From Gelidibacter salicanalis (GTDB taxonomy: Bacteria; Bacteroidota; Bacteroidia; Flavobacteriales; Flavobacteriaceae), in the NCBI RefSeq assembly GCF_007997285.1, contig NZ_VORX01000002.1, positions 1 through 64,000 of the forward strand: a stretch of DNA of 64,000 nucleotides. Direction: 5' to 3'. Below, one piece after another: positions 9,138 through 55,957 of the stretch. Position numbers and translations under genes: made by a program. The notes under the pieces are model-generated. The model was not told where the DNA came from. It saw only the letters and a program-made list of their open reading frames with translations, and did no database searches. Position 1 is the stretch's first letter, and every line of letters begins with the position of its first letter.

Positions 9138-9292
9138 GGTTTCGACTGCGCTCAACCTGACAACGACTGCGCTCAACCTGACATAGACAGCGCTCAACCT
9201 AACACTTTTGTTGCTTTAATTTAATATTCGAAATATTATCTAAAAGGGTTTCGACTGCGCTCAACCTGACATCGACTGCGCTCAATCTGACA
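9138..9292. repeat. Cluster of short dispersed repeats (TTCGACTGCGCTCAACCTG)
   Basis: Five copies of a roughly 21-25-bp motif occur at 9138-9162, 9163-9183, 9184-9205 (degenerate), 9246-9271 and 9272-9292. In reverse complement each runs from TGTCAGGTTGAG to CAGTCGAAACC, which resembles the ends of the hairpin elements at 33343-36845 but with almost no stem between. They sit in the 3' untranslated gap of the OmpA-family gene. Confidence 0.8.
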
Positions 9293-10297: not shown

Positions 10298-10430
10298 ATC
10301 GTAAATCGTAAATCAAAAATCAAAGCAACAATCGTAACTCAACAATCAACAATCGCAAATCAACAATCAACAATCGAAAATCAGCAATCAACAATCAACA
10401 ATCGACAATCTTCAATTCTCAATCTTCAAT
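10298..10430. repeat. Degenerate heptad microsatellite (CAACAAT / TAAATCG)
   Basis: The tract between the exonuclease III and OmpA genes is a run of AATC-spaced heptads such as CAACAAT, with variants. It begins at about 10298 and enters the last codons of the xth gene, whose stop codon (10419-10421) lies inside it. Slippage here could alter the exonuclease C-terminus. Confidence 0.75.
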
Positions 10431-31155: not shown

Positions 31156-33285
31156 ATGAAACTTTTTAAATTTTTAGTTCTTTTTATTACCCTTCAAGTT
31201 TCTGCCCAACAAGGAGGAATGTGGATTCCGTCCTTACTTCAAGGCATGAATGAAACTGAAATGCAAAGTCTAGGCAGTAAATTGTCAGCAAAAGACATTT
31301 ATGATGTCAATAATTCTAGTTTAAAAGATGCGATTGGGCATTTTAATGGCGGGTGTACCAGTGAGGTTATTTCGCCAAAAGGTCTGATTTTGACCAACCA
31401 TCACTGTGGTTTCGGTCAAATCCAATCACATTCATCTTTAGAGAATGACTATCTAAAAAACGGATTTTGGGCAAAAACACTCAGTGAAGAATTGCCTAAT
31501 GAAGGCTTATATGTTGAGTTTATTGTCAGAATAGAAGACGTGACCAAACAAGTTTTAGAAGGGGTTACTGCGGAGATGTCAGACAGAGAGCAACAATCAA
31601 AAAGAGGCAGCAATAGCACTGCAATTGAAAAGGCAGCGAAAAAGGAAGCTTGGCAAGACACTAAAATAAAGGCGTTTTACAAAGGCAATCAATACTTCCT
31701 TTTTGTTACTGAACGTTATGAAGATGTCAGATTGGTAGGTACACCACCGTCAAGTATTGGAAAATTTGGATCTGATACTGACAATTGGGTATGGCCGCGT
31801 CATACCGGCGATTTCTCAATGTTTAGAATCTATGCTGACAAAAACAATCGTCCTGCAAAATATTCGAAAGATAACGTACCGTTTACACCAAAACACTTCT
31901 TGCCAGTTTCTTTAGACGGCATCAGTGAAGATGATTTCACCATGGTATTCGGATTTCCAGGAACTACGGACGAATATTTGCCTGCCGTTGCCGTGGCGCA
32001 AATTGTAGAAAAAATCAATCCTAATACCATTGCCATCAGAGAAGCTGCGTTAAAGGTAATTGATGCCAATATGAAAGCGGATGACCAAATCAGAATTCAG
32101 TATGCTTCTAAACAAGCACGAATTGCAAATGCTTGGAAGAAATGGATTGGTGAAAATTTAGGAATTGAAAAAAGTGGCGCCATTGCGATTAAAAAAGCGC
32201 AAGAAGCGGAATTCACAAAGCAATTAAAGGCGAAAGGACTTGAAAGTAAATACGGAACTGTTTTACCAGAACTTGAGCGTTTATATAACGAGATTGAAGA
32301 GGTTACTGTGAAGCGTCGCAGTTTTATTGAAGTCTTTTTAAGAACCAATGAGTTGACGCCAGTGTTATTTAATCTAGCACAACTAGAGGCTGCAGCGGCC
32401 AATGGCGAAGAGACGTTCGAAAAACAAAGAGATGCCAATGTTGGACGTTTGAAAGGTATCTATAAAGATTACAATGCTACTGTAGATAGAGGTGTTTTTG
32501 AAGCAGTCATGCCTTTGTATACGGTTAATGTGGATGCTACTATTTATGATAGAACAGCCTTTACCAATTTAGATAGTGCTTTGAAGGTGTTGGAAGGGAC
32601 ATCTACAGAGGTGTTAGAAAAATTGAATAACGATGCGGCTTTTCAATACTTAAAACCTTTTATTATGGAATTTTACACGGTGATAGAACCAAAATTCCAA
32701 GAGCTCAACCCACAAATCAATGCACTTGAGCAACAGTATATGACGGCATTAATGGAAGTGTTGCCAGAGCAGCGTTATTTCCCAGATGCTAACGGAACTT
32801 TACGCGTTACCTACGGAAAGGTTAAAGGCTATGAGCCTAGAGATGCGGTATATTATGAGCCTGTAACCTATTTAGATGGCGTTATGGAGAAATATGTTCC
32901 TGGCGATTATGAGTTTGATGTGCCTGAAAAATTACAGCAATTATATGCAGATAAAGATTTCGGTCAGTATGCAGATGCTACAGGGAAAGTACCAGTAAAC
33001 TTTATAGGCACGAACCACACCACAGGAGGTAATTCTGGAAGTCCAGCTATTGATGCCCATGGCAACTTGGTCGGATTAAATTTTGACCGCGTTTGGGAAG
33101 GTACGATGAGTGATATTTATTACGATCCAGAAATTTGTAGAAACATTATGGTCGATTTACGCTATGTGTTGTTTATCGTTGATAAATATGCTGGTGCGAC
33201 ACATTTAATTGACGAAATGACTTTGGTGCATCCAAAGACCAATCGAAAGGCTAGCAACAGTAAAAAAGCTAAGAAGAGCAACTAA
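31156..33285 (+). CDS. S46-family dipeptidyl-peptidase, DPP11-like
   Basis: The 709-residue exported protein (signal LFKFLVLFITLQVSAQQ) is a chymotrypsin-fold S46 peptidase. The His of the triad is in ILTNHHCGFG (His82/83) and the nucleophile is Ser627 in TTGGNSGSPAID. Arg645, in GLNFDRVWEG, is 18 residues after the Ser, the spacing of Porphyromonas gingivalis DPP11 Ser655/Arg673. That Arg gives Asp/Glu preference at P1, where DPP7 has Gly. It releases dipeptides from peptides in the periplasm. It ends with a Lys/Ser-rich tail and a strong terminator. Confidence 0.93.
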   Translation: MKLFKFLVLFITLQVSAQQGGMWIPSLLQGMNETEMQSLGSKLSAKDIYDVNNSSLKDAIGHFNGGCTSEVISPKGLILTNHHCGFGQIQSHSSLENDYLKNGFWAKTLSEELPNEGLYVEFIVRIEDVTKQVLEGVTAEMSDREQQSKRGSNSTAIEKAAKKEAWQDTKIKAFYKGNQYFLFVTERYEDVRLVGTPPSSIGKFGSDTDNWVWPRHTGDFSMFRIYADKNNRPAKYSKDNVPFTPKHFLPVSLDGISEDDFTMVFGFPGTTDEYLPAVAVAQIVEKINPNTIAIREAALKVIDANMKADDQIRIQYASKQARIANAWKKWIGENLGIEKSGAIAIKKAQEAEFTKQLKAKGLESKYGTVLPELERLYNEIEEVTVKRRSFIEVFLRTNELTPVLFNLAQLEAAAANGEETFEKQRDANVGRLKGIYKDYNATVDRGVFEAVMPLYTVNVDATIYDRTAFTNLDSALKVLEGTSTEVLEKLNNDAAFQYLKPFIMEFYTVIEPKFQELNPQINALEQQYMTALMEVLPEQRYFPDANGTLRVTYGKVKGYEPRDAVYYEPVTYLDGVMEKYVPGDYEFDVPEKLQQLYADKDFGQYADATGKVPVNFIGTNHTTGGNSGSPAIDAHGNLVGLNFDRVWEGTMSDIYYDPEICRNIMVDLRYVLFIVDKYAGATHLIDEMTLVHPKTNRKASNSKKAKKSN

Positions 33286-33342: not shown

Positions 33343-34540
33343 GTCAGTTTGAGTGTGCTGAAAGCTTTGGGAATGTTTTTTTGATTGAGAATGATTATGT
33401 TGAAGCTTTCAGGATGTATCGAGAACATTTCACTAATCCATATTAGGTTTTTGCACGCTTCTCGATACTATTTTCAATCACTGCCGTGCTTGAAAATCAC
33501 TCGTAGTGACAGTGAATAACGATTGTCAGTTCGAGTGTCCTGAAAGCTTTTGGGGATTTTTTTGTTTGAGAATGATTAAGTTGAAGCTTTCAGGATGTAT
33601 CGAGAACCTTCGCTAATACCTATTGGGATTTTGCACGCTTCTCGATACTATTTTCAATCACTGCCGTGCTTGAAAATCACTCGAAGTGACAGTGAATAAC
33701 GTTTGTCAGTTCGAGTGTCCTGAAAGCTTTTGGGGATTTTTTTGTTTGAGAATAATTAAGTTGAAGCTTTCAGGATGTATCGAGAACCTTTCGCTAATAC
33801 ATATTGAGTTTTTGCACGCTTCTCGATACTATTTCCAATCACTGCCTTGCTTGACAATCACTCGAAGTGACAGTGAATAACGTTTGTCAGTTCGAGTGTC
33901 CTGAAAGCTTTTGGGGATTTTTTTGTTTCAGAATGATTATGTTAAAGCTTTCAGGATGTATCGAGAACCTTTCGCTAATACATATTGAGTTTTTAACACG
34001 CTTCTCGATACTATTTCCAATCACTACCGTGCTTGAAAATCACTCGAAGTGACAGTGAATAACGTTTGTCAGTTCGAGTGTCCTGAAAGCTTGGAGAATG
34101 GTTTTTTGATTGAGAACGATTATGTTGAAGCTTTCAGGATATATCGAGAACCTTTCGCTAATACATATGTTTTTGCACGCTTCTCAATACTATTTTTAAT
34201 CACTACCGTGCTTGAAAATCACTCGTAGTGACAGTGAATAACGATTGTCAGTTCGAGTGTCCTGAAAGCTTTTGGGGATTTTTTTGTTTCAGAATGATTA
34301 TGTTAAAGCTTTCAGGATGTATCGAGAACCTTCGATAATACCTATTGGGATTTTGCACGCTTCTCGATACTATTTTCAATCACTGCCGTGCTTGAAAATC
34401 ACTCGAAGTGACAGTGAATAACGTTTGTCAGTTCGAGTGTCCTGAAAGCTTTTATGAACTGTTTTTGTTTCAGAATGATTATGTTAAAGCTTTCAGGATG
34501 TATCGAGAACCTTTAGAATTTCCAAAGTAACTCAAAGCAT
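33343..34540. repeat. Twin-hairpin repeat array, segment 1 (units 1-7)
   Basis: About 180-bp units start at 33343, 33525, 33705, 33886, 34068, 34247 and 34427. Element A (plus sense) is GTCAGTTCGAGTG, then a 12-bp inverted repeat TCCTGAAAGCTT/AAGCTTTCAGGA around a roughly 33-nt loop, then TGTATCGAGAAC. After a spacer of about 30 nt comes element B in the opposite sense: GCTTCTCGATAC, stem ATTTTCAA/TTGAAAAT around TCACTGCCGTGC, then CACTCGAAGTGACA. In the seventh unit the A-B spacer is replaced by a GIY-YIG gene. The first unit is the most diverged. There is no protein gene in this stretch. Confidence 0.93.
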
Positions 34541-34548
34541 TATGAGTT

Positions 34549-34839
34549 TTATTTGAATTTCTTCTTAGCCAGATTAGGCAACTTCTCAAATTCATTATTG
34601 ATCAAAGCTTCTTTTTTAGCCTTTGACCATTTTTTGATTTGCTTTTCAATCATAATTGCTTGATTTGGATCTACAAATTCTTGGTAAAATTCAAGTAGTA
34701 AGGGTCTTCGATTGTATGTATAGCTTTCTTTATACTTGCCCGATTGATGCTCCATAAACCGTTGCTCAAGATTTGACGTAAAACCAGTGTAATAGGTTTC
34801 ATCAGAGCATTTGAGAATATAGACATAATAAAATTTCAT
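34549..34839 (-). CDS. GIY-YIG nuclease-family protein, copy 1 (inside repeat unit 7)
   Basis: I start the gene at ATG 34839 (MKFYYVYILKCSDETYYTG, 96 residues); the frame extends 11 codons upstream, but that part is read from element B of the repeat. The GIY-YIG core is visible as YVYIL and YYTGF, Arg in LEQRFMEHQSGK, the catalytic Glu in MIEKQIKKWSKAKK, and a Lys-rich tail, as in the single-domain UPF0213/YhbQ-type family. It is bounded exactly by element A (left) and B (right) of one unit. A role in copying or moving the repeats is inference. Confidence 0.88.
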   Translation of the reverse strand: MKFYYVYILKCSDETYYTGFTSNLEQRFMEHQSGKYKESYTYNRRPLLLEFYQEFVDPNQAIMIEKQIKKWSKAKKEALINNEFEKLPNLAKKKFK

Positions 34840-34843
34840 ACTT

Positions 34844-35576
34844 AAATATACGCTTCTCGATACTATTTCCAATCACTACCGTGCTTGACAATCACTCGAA
34901 GTGACAGTGAATAACGTTTGTCAGTTCGAGTGTCCAGAAAGCTTGGAGAATGGTTTTTTGATTGAGAACGATTATGTTGAAGCTTTCAGGATATATCGAG
35001 AACCTTTCGCTAATACATATTGAGTTTTTGCACGCTTCTCGATACTATTTTCAATCACTGCCGTGCTTGACAATCACTCGAAGTGACAGTGAATAACGTT
35101 TGTCAGTTCGAGTGTCCTGAAAGCTTTTATGAATTGTTTTTGTTTTAGAATGATTATGTTGAAGCTTTCAGGATGTATCGAGAACCTTCGCTAATACCTA
35201 TTGAGTTTTTGCACGCTTCTCGATACTATTTTCAATCACTACTGTGCTTGAAAATCACTCGAAGTGACAGTGAATAACGTTTGTCAGTTCGAGTGTCCTG
35301 AAAGCTTTTGGGGATTTTTTTGTTTCAGAATGATTATGTTAAAGCTTTCAGGATGTATCGAGAACCTTCGATAATACCTATTGGGATTTTGCACGCTTCT
35401 CGATACTATTTTCAATCACTGCCGTGCTTGAAAATCACTCGAAGTGACAGTGAATAACGTTTGTCAGTTCGAGTGTCCTGAAAGCTTTTATGAACTGTTT
35501 TTGTTTCAGAATGATTATGTTAAAGCTTTCAGGATGTATCGAGAACCTTTAGAATTTCCAAAGTAACTCAAAGCAT
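34844..35576. repeat. Twin-hairpin repeat array, segment 2 (units 7-11)
   Basis: This segment starts with element B of unit 7 and holds A elements at 34920, 35102, 35283 and 35463. The A element at 34920 has TCCAGAAAGCTT, which breaks two stem pairs. Bases 35280-35924 repeat 34244-34888 without a visible difference, so two units and the GIY-YIG gene were copied together. There is no other gene in this stretch. Confidence 0.92.
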
Positions 35577-35584
35577 TATGAGTT

Positions 35585-35875
35585 TTATTTGAATTTCTTC
35601 TTAGCCAGATTAGGCAACTTCTCAAATTCATTATTGATCAAAGCTTCTTTTTTAGCCTTTGACCATTTTTTGATTTGCTTTTCAATCATAATTGCTTGAT
35701 TTGGATCTACAAATTCTTGGTAAAATTCAAGTAGTAAGGGTCTTCGATTGTATGTATAGCTTTCTTTATACTTGCCCGATTGATGCTCCATAAACCGTTG
35801 CTCAAGATTTGACGTAAAACCAGTGTAATAGGTTTCATCAGAGCATTTGAGAATATAGACATAATAAAATTTCAT
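35585..35875 (-). CDS. GIY-YIG nuclease-family protein, copy 2 (inside repeat unit 11)
   Basis: The protein is identical to the copy at 34549-34839 and also shows no nucleotide difference, with the same flanks (element A ending GTATCGAGAACC on the left, element B on the right). The same start choice applies (ATG 35875, 96 residues, YVYIL / YYTGF / MIEKQ motifs). Identity at silent sites points to a recent duplication or gene conversion. It need not be functionally distinct from copy 1. Confidence 0.88.
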   Translation of the reverse strand: MKFYYVYILKCSDETYYTGFTSNLEQRFMEHQSGKYKESYTYNRRPLLLEFYQEFVDPNQAIMIEKQIKKWSKAKKEALINNEFEKLPNLAKKKFK

Positions 35876-35879
35876 ACTT

Positions 35880-36845
35880 AAATATACGCTTCTCGATACT
35901 ATTTCCAATCACTACCGTGCTTGAAAATCACTCGAAGTGACAGTGAATAACGTTTGTCAGTTCGAGTGTCCAGAAAGCTTGAAGAATGGTTTTTTGATTG
36001 AGAATGATTATGTTGAAGCTTTCAGGATGTATCGAGAACCTTTCGCTAATCCATATTAGGTTTTAACACGCTTCTCGATACTATTTCCAATCCCTCTGGG
36101 GCTTGAAAATCACTCGAAGTGACAGTGATTACGGTTGTCAGTTCGAGTGTCCTGAAAGCTTTGGAAATCGTTTTTTGATTGAGAACGATTATGTTGAAGC
36201 TTTCAGGATATATCGAGAACCTTTCGCTAATACATATTGAGTTTTTAACACGCTTCTCGATACTATTTTCAATCACTGCCTTGCTTGACAATCACTCGAA
36301 GTGACGGTGAATAACGATTGTCAGTTCGAGTGTCCTGAAAGCTTTTGGGGATTTTTTTGTTTGAGAATAATTAAGTTGAAGCTTTCAGGATATATCGAGA
36401 ACCTTTCGCTAATAACTATTGAGTTTTTGCACGCTTCTCGATACTATTTCCAATCACTGCCTTGCTTGACAATCACTCGAAGTGACAGTGAATAACGTTT
36501 GTCAGTTCGAGTGTCCTGAAAGCTTTTGGGAATTTTTTTGTTTCAGAATGATTATGTTAAAGCTTTCAGGATGTATCGAGAACCTTTCGCTAATACATAT
36601 GTTTTTGCACGCTTCTCAATACTATTTTTAATCACTACCGTGCTTGAAAATCACTCGAAGTGACAAAAGTGTATCGCTTGTCAGTTCGAGTGTCCTGAAA
36701 GCTTTGGAAATCGTTTTTGTTTTAGAATGATTAAGTTGGAGCTTTCTGGATGTATCGAGAACATTCAGATAGTTCATTTTAAGACGCTTCTCGATACTAT
36801 TTCCAATCACTACCGTGCTTGAAAATCACTCGAAGTGACAGTGAT
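35880..36845. repeat. Twin-hairpin repeat array, segment 3 (units 11-16)
   Basis: This segment begins with element B of unit 11. A elements begin at 35956, 36137, 36320, 36501 and 36680, each followed by an opposite-sense B element; the last B ends near 36845, just before the ahcY terminator. Units 12 and 16 are the most diverged. Several short open frames here (for example 36046-36291 and 36301-36495) are repeat sequence and not genes. Confidence 0.92.
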
Positions 36846-36917: not shown

Positions 36918-38234
36918 TTAGTATCTGTAATATTCCGGTTTGTAAGGACCTTCAACGGCAACACCAATATACTCAGCTTGCTCGTCACGTAATTCTGTCA
37001 ATTCTACACCAATTTTTTCTAAATGTAATTTGGCTACTTTTTCATCCAAATGCTTCGGCAACATATATACTTTGTTTTCGTAAGCATCTCTGTTGGTCCA
37101 CAATTCTAATTGTGCCAAAGTTTGGTTTGTAAATGAGTTACTCATTACAAAACTTGGGTGACCCGTAGCACAGCCCAAATTCACCAATCGGCCTTCAGCC
37201 AAAATGATGATGTCTTTTCCGTGTACGGTATATTTATCAACCTGTGGTTTGATTTCTACTTTCGTATCGCCGTAGTTTTTGTTCAACCATGACATTTCAA
37301 TTTCATTGTCAAAGTGACCAATGTTACAAACAACAGTTTTGTCTTTCATCATTTCAAAATGCTTCCCTTGAACGATGTCTTTATTTCCAGTAGTTGTTAT
37401 TACGATATCAGCATTGGCGACAACAGTTTCAAGTTTCTTAACTTCAAAACCATCCATAGCTGCTTGTAAAGCGCAAATTGGGTCAATTTCAGTAACCGTT
37501 ACTATACTTCCAGCACCTTTAAAGGACGCTGCTGTACCTTTACCAACATCACCATATCCACAAACTACAACCCGTCTTCCGGCCAACATTAAATCAGTTG
37601 CACGACGTACAGCATCAACTGCACTTTCACGACACCCGTATTTATTGTCAAATTTAGATTTTGTTACAGAATCATTAACGTTGATTGCAGGCATTGATAA
37701 CGTGCCATTTTTCATACGCTCATAAAGTCTGTGAACACCTGTAGTCGTTTCTTCCGAAAGTCCGTTAATGCCTTCCATCAACTCAGGATATTTATCGAAA
37801 ACCATATTGGTTAAATCGCCACCATCATCTAAAATCATATTTAATGGTTTTCTGTCTTCACCAAAAAATAAGGTTTGTTCTATACACCAGTTAAATTCCT
37901 CTTCGTTCATGCCTTTCCAAGCATATACCGGAATTCCAGCCTCAGCCATTGCAGCAGCAGCTTGATTTTGTGTAGAGAAAATATTACATGAACTCCACGT
38001 AACTTCTGCGCCAAGAGCAGTTAAGGTTTCAATCAAAACCGCCGTTTGGATGGTCATGTGCAAACATCCTGCAATACGTGCGCCCTTAAGTGGTTGTGAG
38101 TCGCCATATTCTTCACGGAGGCTCATTAACCCTGGCATTTCAGCTTCAGCTAGTTCAATTTCTTTTCTTCCCCAAGCCGCAAGTGACATGTCTTTGACTT
38201 TGTAAGGTACGTAAGGCACTGTTTTCGTATTCAT
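36918..38234 (-). CDS. ahcY: Adenosylhomocysteinase
   Basis: The 438-residue enzyme hydrolyses S-adenosylhomocysteine to adenosine and homocysteine. Visible motifs are [16 protein letters not shown], the NAD-binding [15 protein letters not shown] (about 218-232), GHFDNEI, and the C-terminal KPEYYRY that closes the cofactor site of the neighbouring subunit. Length and both ends fit the family. It is single, followed by its own terminator and the repeat array. It belongs to the activated methyl cycle, linking loosely to the methionine aminotransferase upstream. Confidence 0.97.
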
Positions 38235-55732: not shown

Positions 55733-55957
55733 CGTCAGTTCGAGTGTTTTTAAAGAACGTGCCAGAGCACGTTTTTTAAAAATGTATCGAGAACCGAGTG
55801 CGTTCATAATTTTCTTGAGCACGTTTTTTAAAAATGTATCGAGAACCGAGTGCGTTCATAATTTTCTTGAGCACGTTTTTTAAAAATGTATCAAGAACCG
55901 AGTGCGTTCATAATTTTCTTGAGCACGTTTTTTAAAAATGTATAATGAGAACCTCGC
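55733..55957. repeat. Hairpin repeat with 52-bp period, third stem type of the array family
   Basis: The leftmost copy has the end motif GTCAGTTCGAGTG (55733-55745), then a 16-bp stem TTTTTAAAGAACGTGC/GCACGTTTTTTAAAAA (one G-T pair) with a CAGA loop, then TGTATCGAGAACC. The right half (GAGCACG to TTTTCTT) then recurs at 55765, 55817, 55869 and 55921, exactly 52 bp apart. It lies between ftsX and the DUF3098 gene. No gene is seen in this stretch of about 440 bp. Confidence 0.88.

Follow-up and report, generated by a model that had tools for sequence, protein, structure and literature searches.

The DNA analyzed here (the window; 64,000 nt at the start of contig NZ_VORX01000002.1 of Gelidibacter salicanalis) contains a tandem repeat array (~33.34 to 36.84 kb) flanked by two genes that, from their sequences, we take to be an S46-peptidase gene (31156-33285) and ahcY (36918-38234), and two identical copies of a small GIY-YIG nuclease gene lie within this array (Table 1). 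The elements on either side of the first gene copy, A and B, belong to one family and have opposite orientations. Element A starts with GTCAGTTCGAGTG and ends with TGTATCGAGAACC, with a stem between, and the outer arms of the two elements (GTTC/GAAC in A, CTTC/GAAG in B) show a compensatory difference. Spacers between R ends (i.e., the TATCGAGAA ends of elements) measure 24-32 nt in the array, as opposed to 342 nt for the two that bear the gene. The initial annotation, which placed the gene in the spacer between the A and B hairpins, was correct, as was its remark on an 11-codon extension of the open frame into element B; the frame reaches TTG 34872, 11 codons beyond ATG 34839. The array clearly grew by tandem duplication. 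Elsewhere in the window, the complete element at 55733 is followed by 52-nt tandem partial copies of the element's 3' half, up to 55943, and tandem repeats of other kinds occur at 10323-10427 (7/14-nt units of the AATCAACAATC type) and at 1-180 (a duplicated stretch of 90 nt).

Table 1. Nuclease gene copies, repeat elements, and tandem modules in the window.
Feature	Coordinates	Strand	Remarks
GIY-YIG nuclease gene, copy 1	34549..34839	-	ORF of 96 aa from ATG 34839, open frame up to TTG 34872; PF01541
GIY-YIG nuclease gene, copy 2, identical	35585..35875	-	ORF; gene and linker identical to copy 1 at 336/336 nt
Element A, left of gene copy 1	34427..34512	+	GTCA-GTTC-GAGTG..inner stem-loop..GTATCGA-GAAC-C; DNA fold -13.8 kcal/mol, z = -4.87
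Element B, right of gene copy 1	34853..34905	-	GTCA-CTTC-GAGTG..GTATCGA-GAAG; fold z = -1.87
Tandem array of ~180-nt units, each a B(-) plus an A(+) element	33343..36837	.	two R-R spacers hold the gene
Tandemly duplicated module of 1,036 nt that carries gene copy 1	34361..35396	.	95.1% identical to next module
Second 1,036-nt module, with gene copy 2	35397..36432	.	95.1% identical to first module
Dispersed element of the same class as A and B, without gene	55733..55798	+	fold -15.1 kcal/mol, z = -6.54
Short-class elements (TGTCAGGTTGAGCGCAGTCGAAACC type)	9138..9292	-	repeat family D11; class that brackets paralogue G000:C21:22387

The window protein matched PF01541 (GIY-YIG) in Pfam (E = 2.4e-16, residues 3-75 of 96) and had no match in NCBIfam. 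Residues Y7, Y17, R27, H31, and E65 were invariant in a 10-member alignment. Its closest solved structures are the UPF0213 proteins 1ZG2 (E = 8.7e-21) and 1YWL (E = 9.9e-16), and the next solved relatives, SLX1 and Endonuclease II, are weak matches (E 0.25-0.61). At the sensitivity used, a viral collection yielded one weak relative (36% identity, residues 8-43) and no close one. Within the window's own genome, the pattern TTCGAGTG-N20-50-TATCGAGAA had 56 matches, with 0 in the reversed control, and short-class elements numbered 29. Six GIY-YIG matches at E ≤ 0.01 in this genome represented five distinct genes, and each of the four paralogues was bracketed, as judged by eye, by a different repeat: GTCAGGCTGAGCGCAGTCGAAGCC; TTTCCGC..GCGGAAAT; GTCATTGCGAGGAGCG..GCAATCT arrays; and a TGCGCA hairpin.

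The element classes follow one plan, i.e., GTCA, a variable outer stem, GAG(Y), an inner part, YCGA, and the complementary outer stem; read from the GTC end, the long class of the window has GTCA and a 4-nt outer arm, then the core motifs GAGTG and GTATCGA with an inner stem-loop between them, and lastly the complement of the outer arm. To score pairing of the outer stem, elements were picked by their cores alone. In a first set of loci from the family (described below), the 4-nt outer arms were fully complementary in 99/119 long elements (shuffled mean 27.5, maximum 39) and in 55/78 short elements (shuffled mean 4.1, maximum 11). The named (GTDB) set gave paired outer arms in 184/227 long elements (shuffled mean 68.6, maximum 93), with 10 distinct paired stems, and in 103/140 short elements (13.7 shuffled, maximum 22), with 25 distinct paired stems; inner stems in this set were paired in 152/221 cases (shuffled 40.2, maximum 50). 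The GTCA prefix was present in 85/119 long and 47/78 short elements of the first set, and the column profile upstream of the stem in the named set was G96 T98 C95 A91 for the long and G89 T92 C82 A82 for the short class. The elements have, at one end, the unpaired tag (CGTC/TGTC) by which the CGTC REP superfamily is recognized.

Element A folds as single-stranded DNA (z = -4.87), and element B folds more weakly (z = -1.87), with 9/200 shuffles as good. The short-class element tested had no predicted fold under standard parameters (z = 0.45), which speaks against a simple hairpin reading, and thermodynamic folding was rejected as an account of this class. The 3-nt middles of paired short elements had the form GNA in 68/75 cases. 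Such middles are reminiscent of stable C-GNA-G DNA mini-hairpins, and the GAG/CGA core is reminiscent of sheared tandem G.A pairs.

The flanks of related genes were compared in two sets of loci. The first came from 149 genomes of the family (Flavobacteriaceae) and comprised 78 gene loci, to which 12 weaker ones were added (90 in all); 57 of these genomes had a gene match at E ≤ 1e-12 and 58 had the element, with 0 or 1 match per genome in the reversed control. When the left flank was aligned to the reverse-complemented right flank, a score of at least 12 was reached in 45/78 loci, compared to 12/390 same-locus windows, 3/390 shuffled sequences, and 178/1000 flank pairs swapped between loci, which often have the same element class. 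With a GTC tag also demanded, 45/90 loci were flanked on two sides and 18 on one. The second set consisted of the best 80 of 564 relatives in GTDB r220, classified by rules built on the first set and overlapping it by at least three loci (L127, L130, and L161). An element was found within 300 nt of the gene in 78 of these 80 loci, as opposed to 12/296 control windows, and L193, one of the two misses, has GTCATGGTGAGCCCCGCCGAACCATGAC, which by eye follows the same plan. Demanding the GTC tag as well left 76/80 of these best-scoring loci flanked, 56 on two sides and 20 on one. The taxa among the 80 include Gelidibacter, Polaribacter, Winogradskyella, Flavobacterium, Chryseobacterium, Mucilaginibacter, a member of the Cytophagales, and an Ignavibacteriaceae MAG. 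Complete 300-nt flanks carried an element in 121/154 and 131/154 cases in these two sets of small genes. The corresponding count for larger GIY-YIG control genes (429-603 aa frames, nine loci) was 0/12, the right flanks of six UvrC-sized loci being left out of it.

The orientation of the elements was mixed, with tails pointing toward the gene in 27/45, 29/56, and 7/9 two-sided loci. Among the relatives there are also decayed GIY-YIG copies with stops. The C-terminal tails of four proteins (L078, L082, L088, and L091), (G)LDSA(R/L)PD or GLNSALPD, resemble the translated repeat, and the repeats thus form part of some nuclease reading frames. In two other loci, L095 and L072, the GIY-YIG frame continues without a stop into other coding sequence (417 and 435 aa open frames), presumably GHMP-kinase-like and ACC-deaminase-like, respectively.

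When element class was mapped onto a tree of the nuclease proteins, 14 changes were needed, compared to a shuffled mean of 45.5, and none of 200 shuffles was as low. The tree held 85 proteins, five of the 90 rows being left out as shorter than 60 aa; 72 of the rows had one of three element classes no farther than 300 nt from the gene, and 13 did not. In the window's clade, every one of the 23 rows has the long class. The tree is short, with weak resolution (6/80 inner branches starred; SH-aLRT 84 for the window's clade), and clades were assigned by hand. The expectation of the initial annotation that close homologues carry flanking hairpins thus held, both in this clade and in the best 80 of 564 relatives, and its suggestion that stem sequence co-varies with nuclease clade was upheld at the level of element class. 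These data also bear on the possibility that a recombination-amplified array carried the gene by accident. The array and the gene-bearing 1,036-nt modules are clearly tandem-duplicated, as such an account would have it; however, the element lies beside the gene in nearly all of those 80 relatives, related genes in records from alpha-, beta-, and gammaproteobacteria have tagged hairpins next to them (see below), and the match between class and tree is contrary to it as a general account, so that we consider this explanation hardly credible.

Genome-wide abundance followed the same pattern. Among the 149 genomes, at least three long elements were present in 18/22 genomes with a clade I gene vs. 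16/127 without; the corresponding figures were 12/12 genomes with clade TA vs. 36/137 without for the TA class, and 16/17 genomes with clade CG vs. 30/132 without for the CG class. These counts take in gene-adjacent elements and ignore phylogenetic kinship. Element numbers increased most strongly with the cognate clade; links to other clades were weaker, the off-diagonal values being 13/22 vs. 35/127 for clade I with the TA class, 7/12 vs. 39/137 for clade TA with the CG class, and 9/17 vs. 39/132 for clade CG with the TA class. For the sister clade TA2 and its own class, the difference among these genomes was not significant (5/9 vs. 43/140, p = 0.12). The refuting condition named in the initial annotation, a gene missing from genomes rich in the repeat and the reverse, thus does not hold as a rule, with exceptions in both directions. 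Four of the 22 clade I genomes have fewer than three long elements, and orphan repeats exist in genomes that lack a small gene: when 15 element-bearing genomes were re-searched with PF01541, G070 and G093 had only ~460- or 600-aa GIY-YIG frames, and G070 (frames of 602 and 459 aa) has 22 long elements. The latter suggests that repeat-rich genomes are viable without a small nuclease gene.

The nuclease might instead be a housekeeping enzyme that processes hairpins or cruciforms and is needed by repeat-rich genomes, or its gene might be autoregulated by the flanking hairpins, with neither spreading nor targeting of repeats. The flanking hairpins could indeed serve as terminators, and SLX1 and Endonuclease II, weak matches as they are, come next among the solved relatives. 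However, the genes are patchily distributed, several clades occur in one genome, each with its own repeat, decayed copies exist, and class matching is specific to the clade. We thus regard a housekeeping or autoregulatory role as quite improbable.

Within one genus, gene and element were compared among nine congeneric species. The window gene (96-100% identity) was found in G000 and G013 only, and other GIY-YIG genes in all nine. Elements numbered 56 in G000, 51 in G013, 9 in G153, which is without the gene, and 0 in six species. At the ahcY locus, the array is present in G000, G013, and G153, that of G153 without the gene, and the ~1.5 kb read upstream of ahcY in the six other species contained no element. 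The trp operon provides a second site for comparison. In some species the site is filled by repeats plus gene and in others neither is present; in G024, for example, the trpA/trpB gap is 13 nt and the trpB/trpF gap 7 nt. Of the features of MITEs or IS-derived elements, inverted ends are present, and no clean target-site duplication emerged when filled trp-operon sites were set against empty ones. Across loci L237-L251, the trpA-trpB-trpF gaps measure 7-22 nt in some genera and are elsewhere filled by different tagged hairpins, and the gaps of four genomes contain a GIY-YIG gene or a remnant of one.

Repeats with a GTC-type tag are known beyond the Bacteroidota. According to Di Nocera et al. 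(2013, PMC3733652), who defined CGTC-type REPs in five phyla, these "apparently lack a dedicated transposase," the superfamily takes in Neisseria dRS3 and Rickettsia RPE-4 and RPE-6, and its members are reported neither to flank tyrosine transposase genes nor to be associated with transposase genes. No enzyme is named for CGTC REPs in that paper, and "GIY" has 0 occurrences; passage searches of PMC6006769, PMC12306157, and PMC2267715 likewise gave no "GIY-YIG." In searches of an open-access collection of papers, no title or abstract opening tied GIY-YIG genes to REPs.

A tblastn search with an L006-type paralogue matched 33 records of a plasmid collection, whose genera include several reported to have CGTC REPs (PMC3733652). 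Nineteen loci were examined (18 of the 33 records and one from a second query, several of them near relatives), 17 of which are proteobacterial. GTC- or CTC-tagged perfect hairpins (stem ≥6) were present within 300 nt on both sides in 11/19 loci and on one side in 5 more, and all 16 of these loci are among the 17 proteobacterial ones, in alpha-, beta-, and gammaproteobacterial records. By the same rule (stem ≥6, 300 nt), the Planktothrix, Spirosoma, and Sphingomonas loci had no GTC- or CTC-tagged hairpin. Tagged hairpins occurred in 27/38 near flanks vs. 6/38 outer-end windows, and a stricter, GTC-only test of the first 16 loci gave 9 that were two-sided (shuffled, 0.00). The typical hairpin beside the proteobacterial genes, GTCATCCTCGGGCTTGACCCGAGGATCCA, is of CGTC-REP form. 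Elements at GIY-YIG genes and CGTC REPs have in common a GTC-type tag, a hairpin, a short tail, and inverted dimers, and many proteobacterial elements look by eye like CGTC REPs as described (8-9 bp stem, 4-5 nt loop, CCA-like tail; PMC3733652). The long class of the window differs from that description in its 4-bp outer stem, conserved GAGTG/GTATCGA core, and long variable inner stem. Among the neighborhoods seen, a GIY-YIG gene on a Planktothrix plasmid (L307) has an MmeI-type restriction gene on one side and drmA of a DISARM system on the other, a small GIY-YIG gene separates sufB from sufC in Azospirillum lipoferum (L313), and rnc and era of Sphingomonas paeninsulae have a GIY-YIG match between them (L352).

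Small GIY-YIG genes also occur in other settings, and the idea that every such gene is linked to REPs was rejected. Among 118 genomes of the phylum, 29 loci were chosen for their PF01541 scores; as judged by eye, ~17 of them had REP-like flanks, 9 had a tRNA context, and 3 had neither. The comparison of all UPF0213/YhbQ-type genes envisaged in the initial annotation was accordingly too wide in scope, since two genes that we take to be YhbQ-like (L323 and L334) have no such repeats beside them and the tRNA-linked genes are also without these repeats. The latter (L216, L226, L350, and L332, also L211, L324, L331, L335, L337, and L339) sit behind a tRNA gene, and part of this tRNA or its terminator recurs as a direct repeat after them. 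In 3/13 tRNA-type loci (L216, L226, and L350), the duplication begins either with the variable-loop GTC or 2 nt ahead of it, and the start in L332 fits this position too, its first copy being truncated at the contig end. A general start of tRNA-type duplications at this GTC was not borne out by these hand-picked loci; those that do begin there hint at one common signal, GTC plus a hairpin. In L213 and L215, the small gene lies in the 5' end of an epimerase-like gene, the first bases of which appear by eye to be duplicated on either side.

Since small GIY-YIG genes are found at tRNA 3' ends, a role in targeting alone is possible. According to this explanation, the main rival to the one we favor, the repeats would be only homing or landing sites at which the gene inserts beside its cognate hairpin, and they would spread by other means (a RAYT/IS200-type enzyme, slippage, or gene conversion). 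It would account for targets that such genes do not spread (the duplicated tRNA part or terminator and the epimerase-like 5' end), for genomes that are repeat-rich without the gene (G070; the 16/127 without a clade I gene), and for the trp-operon paralogue, which holds its position in genomes of several genera. However, genome-wide element numbers increase most with the cognate clade, the window gene and its elements are both absent from six congeneric species, and CGTC REPs are reported not to flank tyrosine transposase genes (PMC3733652). We consider it unlikely that the repeats are landing sites only.

The association of nuclease and repeat is strong. We propose that small GIY-YIG nucleases and GTC-tagged hairpin repeats are co-evolving pairs in which each nuclease clade recognizes and spreads its own repeat class, and give this reading a probability of roughly two in three. 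From the direct observations of flanking, common architecture, outer-stem covariation, class/clade matching, and co-occurrence both genome-wide and within a genus, we infer binding, cleavage, and movement of the repeats by the nuclease. The nuclease would bind the repeat class of its own clade, recognizing the GTCA tag together with an imperfect hairpin whose core is GAG../..CGA, and is predicted to cut in the GTC tag or close to it; the repeats might then be copied into new sites through repair or a single-strand intermediate. The nuclease genes, in turn, may be maintained by their position next to repeats or between them, moving or multiplying together with these. A wider form of this proposal, which we advance tentatively and with rather more doubt than confidence, is that small GIY-YIG nucleases are the missing mobilizing enzymes of GTC-tagged REPs in Bacteroidota and Proteobacteria, including dRS3, recognizing the GTC tag plus hairpin and cutting at the tag, and that their tRNA-linked relatives may use the variable-loop GTC and the T-arm hairpin as the same signal.

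A clade-matched nuclease beside the repeats is a concrete candidate for the enzyme that CGTC REPs apparently lack (PMC3733652), and its presence beside CGTC-like repeats opens the question of a dedicated enzyme to direct tests, for which a protein of 96 residues and short oligonucleotides suffice. If the proposal is true, bacterial repeats are spread by two or more unrelated kinds of enzyme, among them HUH transposases and GIY-YIG nucleases, and one class of DNA mobility depends on a GIY-YIG nuclease in place of a transposase. Short genes labeled "GIY-YIG nuclease family protein" or "excinuclease ABC subunit C" would then acquire a likely role.

Compared to known systems, the window protein is similar in sequence to the UPF0213/YhbQ family (1ZG2 and 1YWL), although the YhbQ-like genes examined are without repeats. 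GIY-YIG homing endonucleases of the I-TevI type are encoded in introns or inteins or occur at one conserved cognate gene, and have an extra DNA-binding domain. They have the same catalytic domain and catalytic residues as the enzyme described here, for which selfish behavior is likewise suspected; in contrast to them, no intron or intein was seen at the loci studied here, the 96-aa protein has no separate DNA-binding domain (domain residues 3-75), and the genes are intergenic and repeat-linked at many loci instead of being tied to a single gene site. The closest parallel in organization is the RAYT/TnpA-REP system with its GTAG REPs. In both, the gene is bracketed by inverted, short, tagged palindromes, dispersed copies occur, often as inverted pairs, repeat class tracks enzyme clade, and there are orphan repeats without a gene; as in a REPtron, the bracketing repeats recur in the genome, with orientation mixed in part of the loci. 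The two systems differ in their tags, GTAG in REPs of RAYTs and GTCA/CGTC here, and in their enzymes, RAYT being a Y1/HUH transposase and the window protein matching PF01541 only. As these enzymes are unrelated, the chemistry must differ from that of RAYT and REPs. A RAYT-like role is plausible, and the GIY-YIG nuclease may do for GTC-tagged repeats what RAYT transposases do for GTAG REPs.
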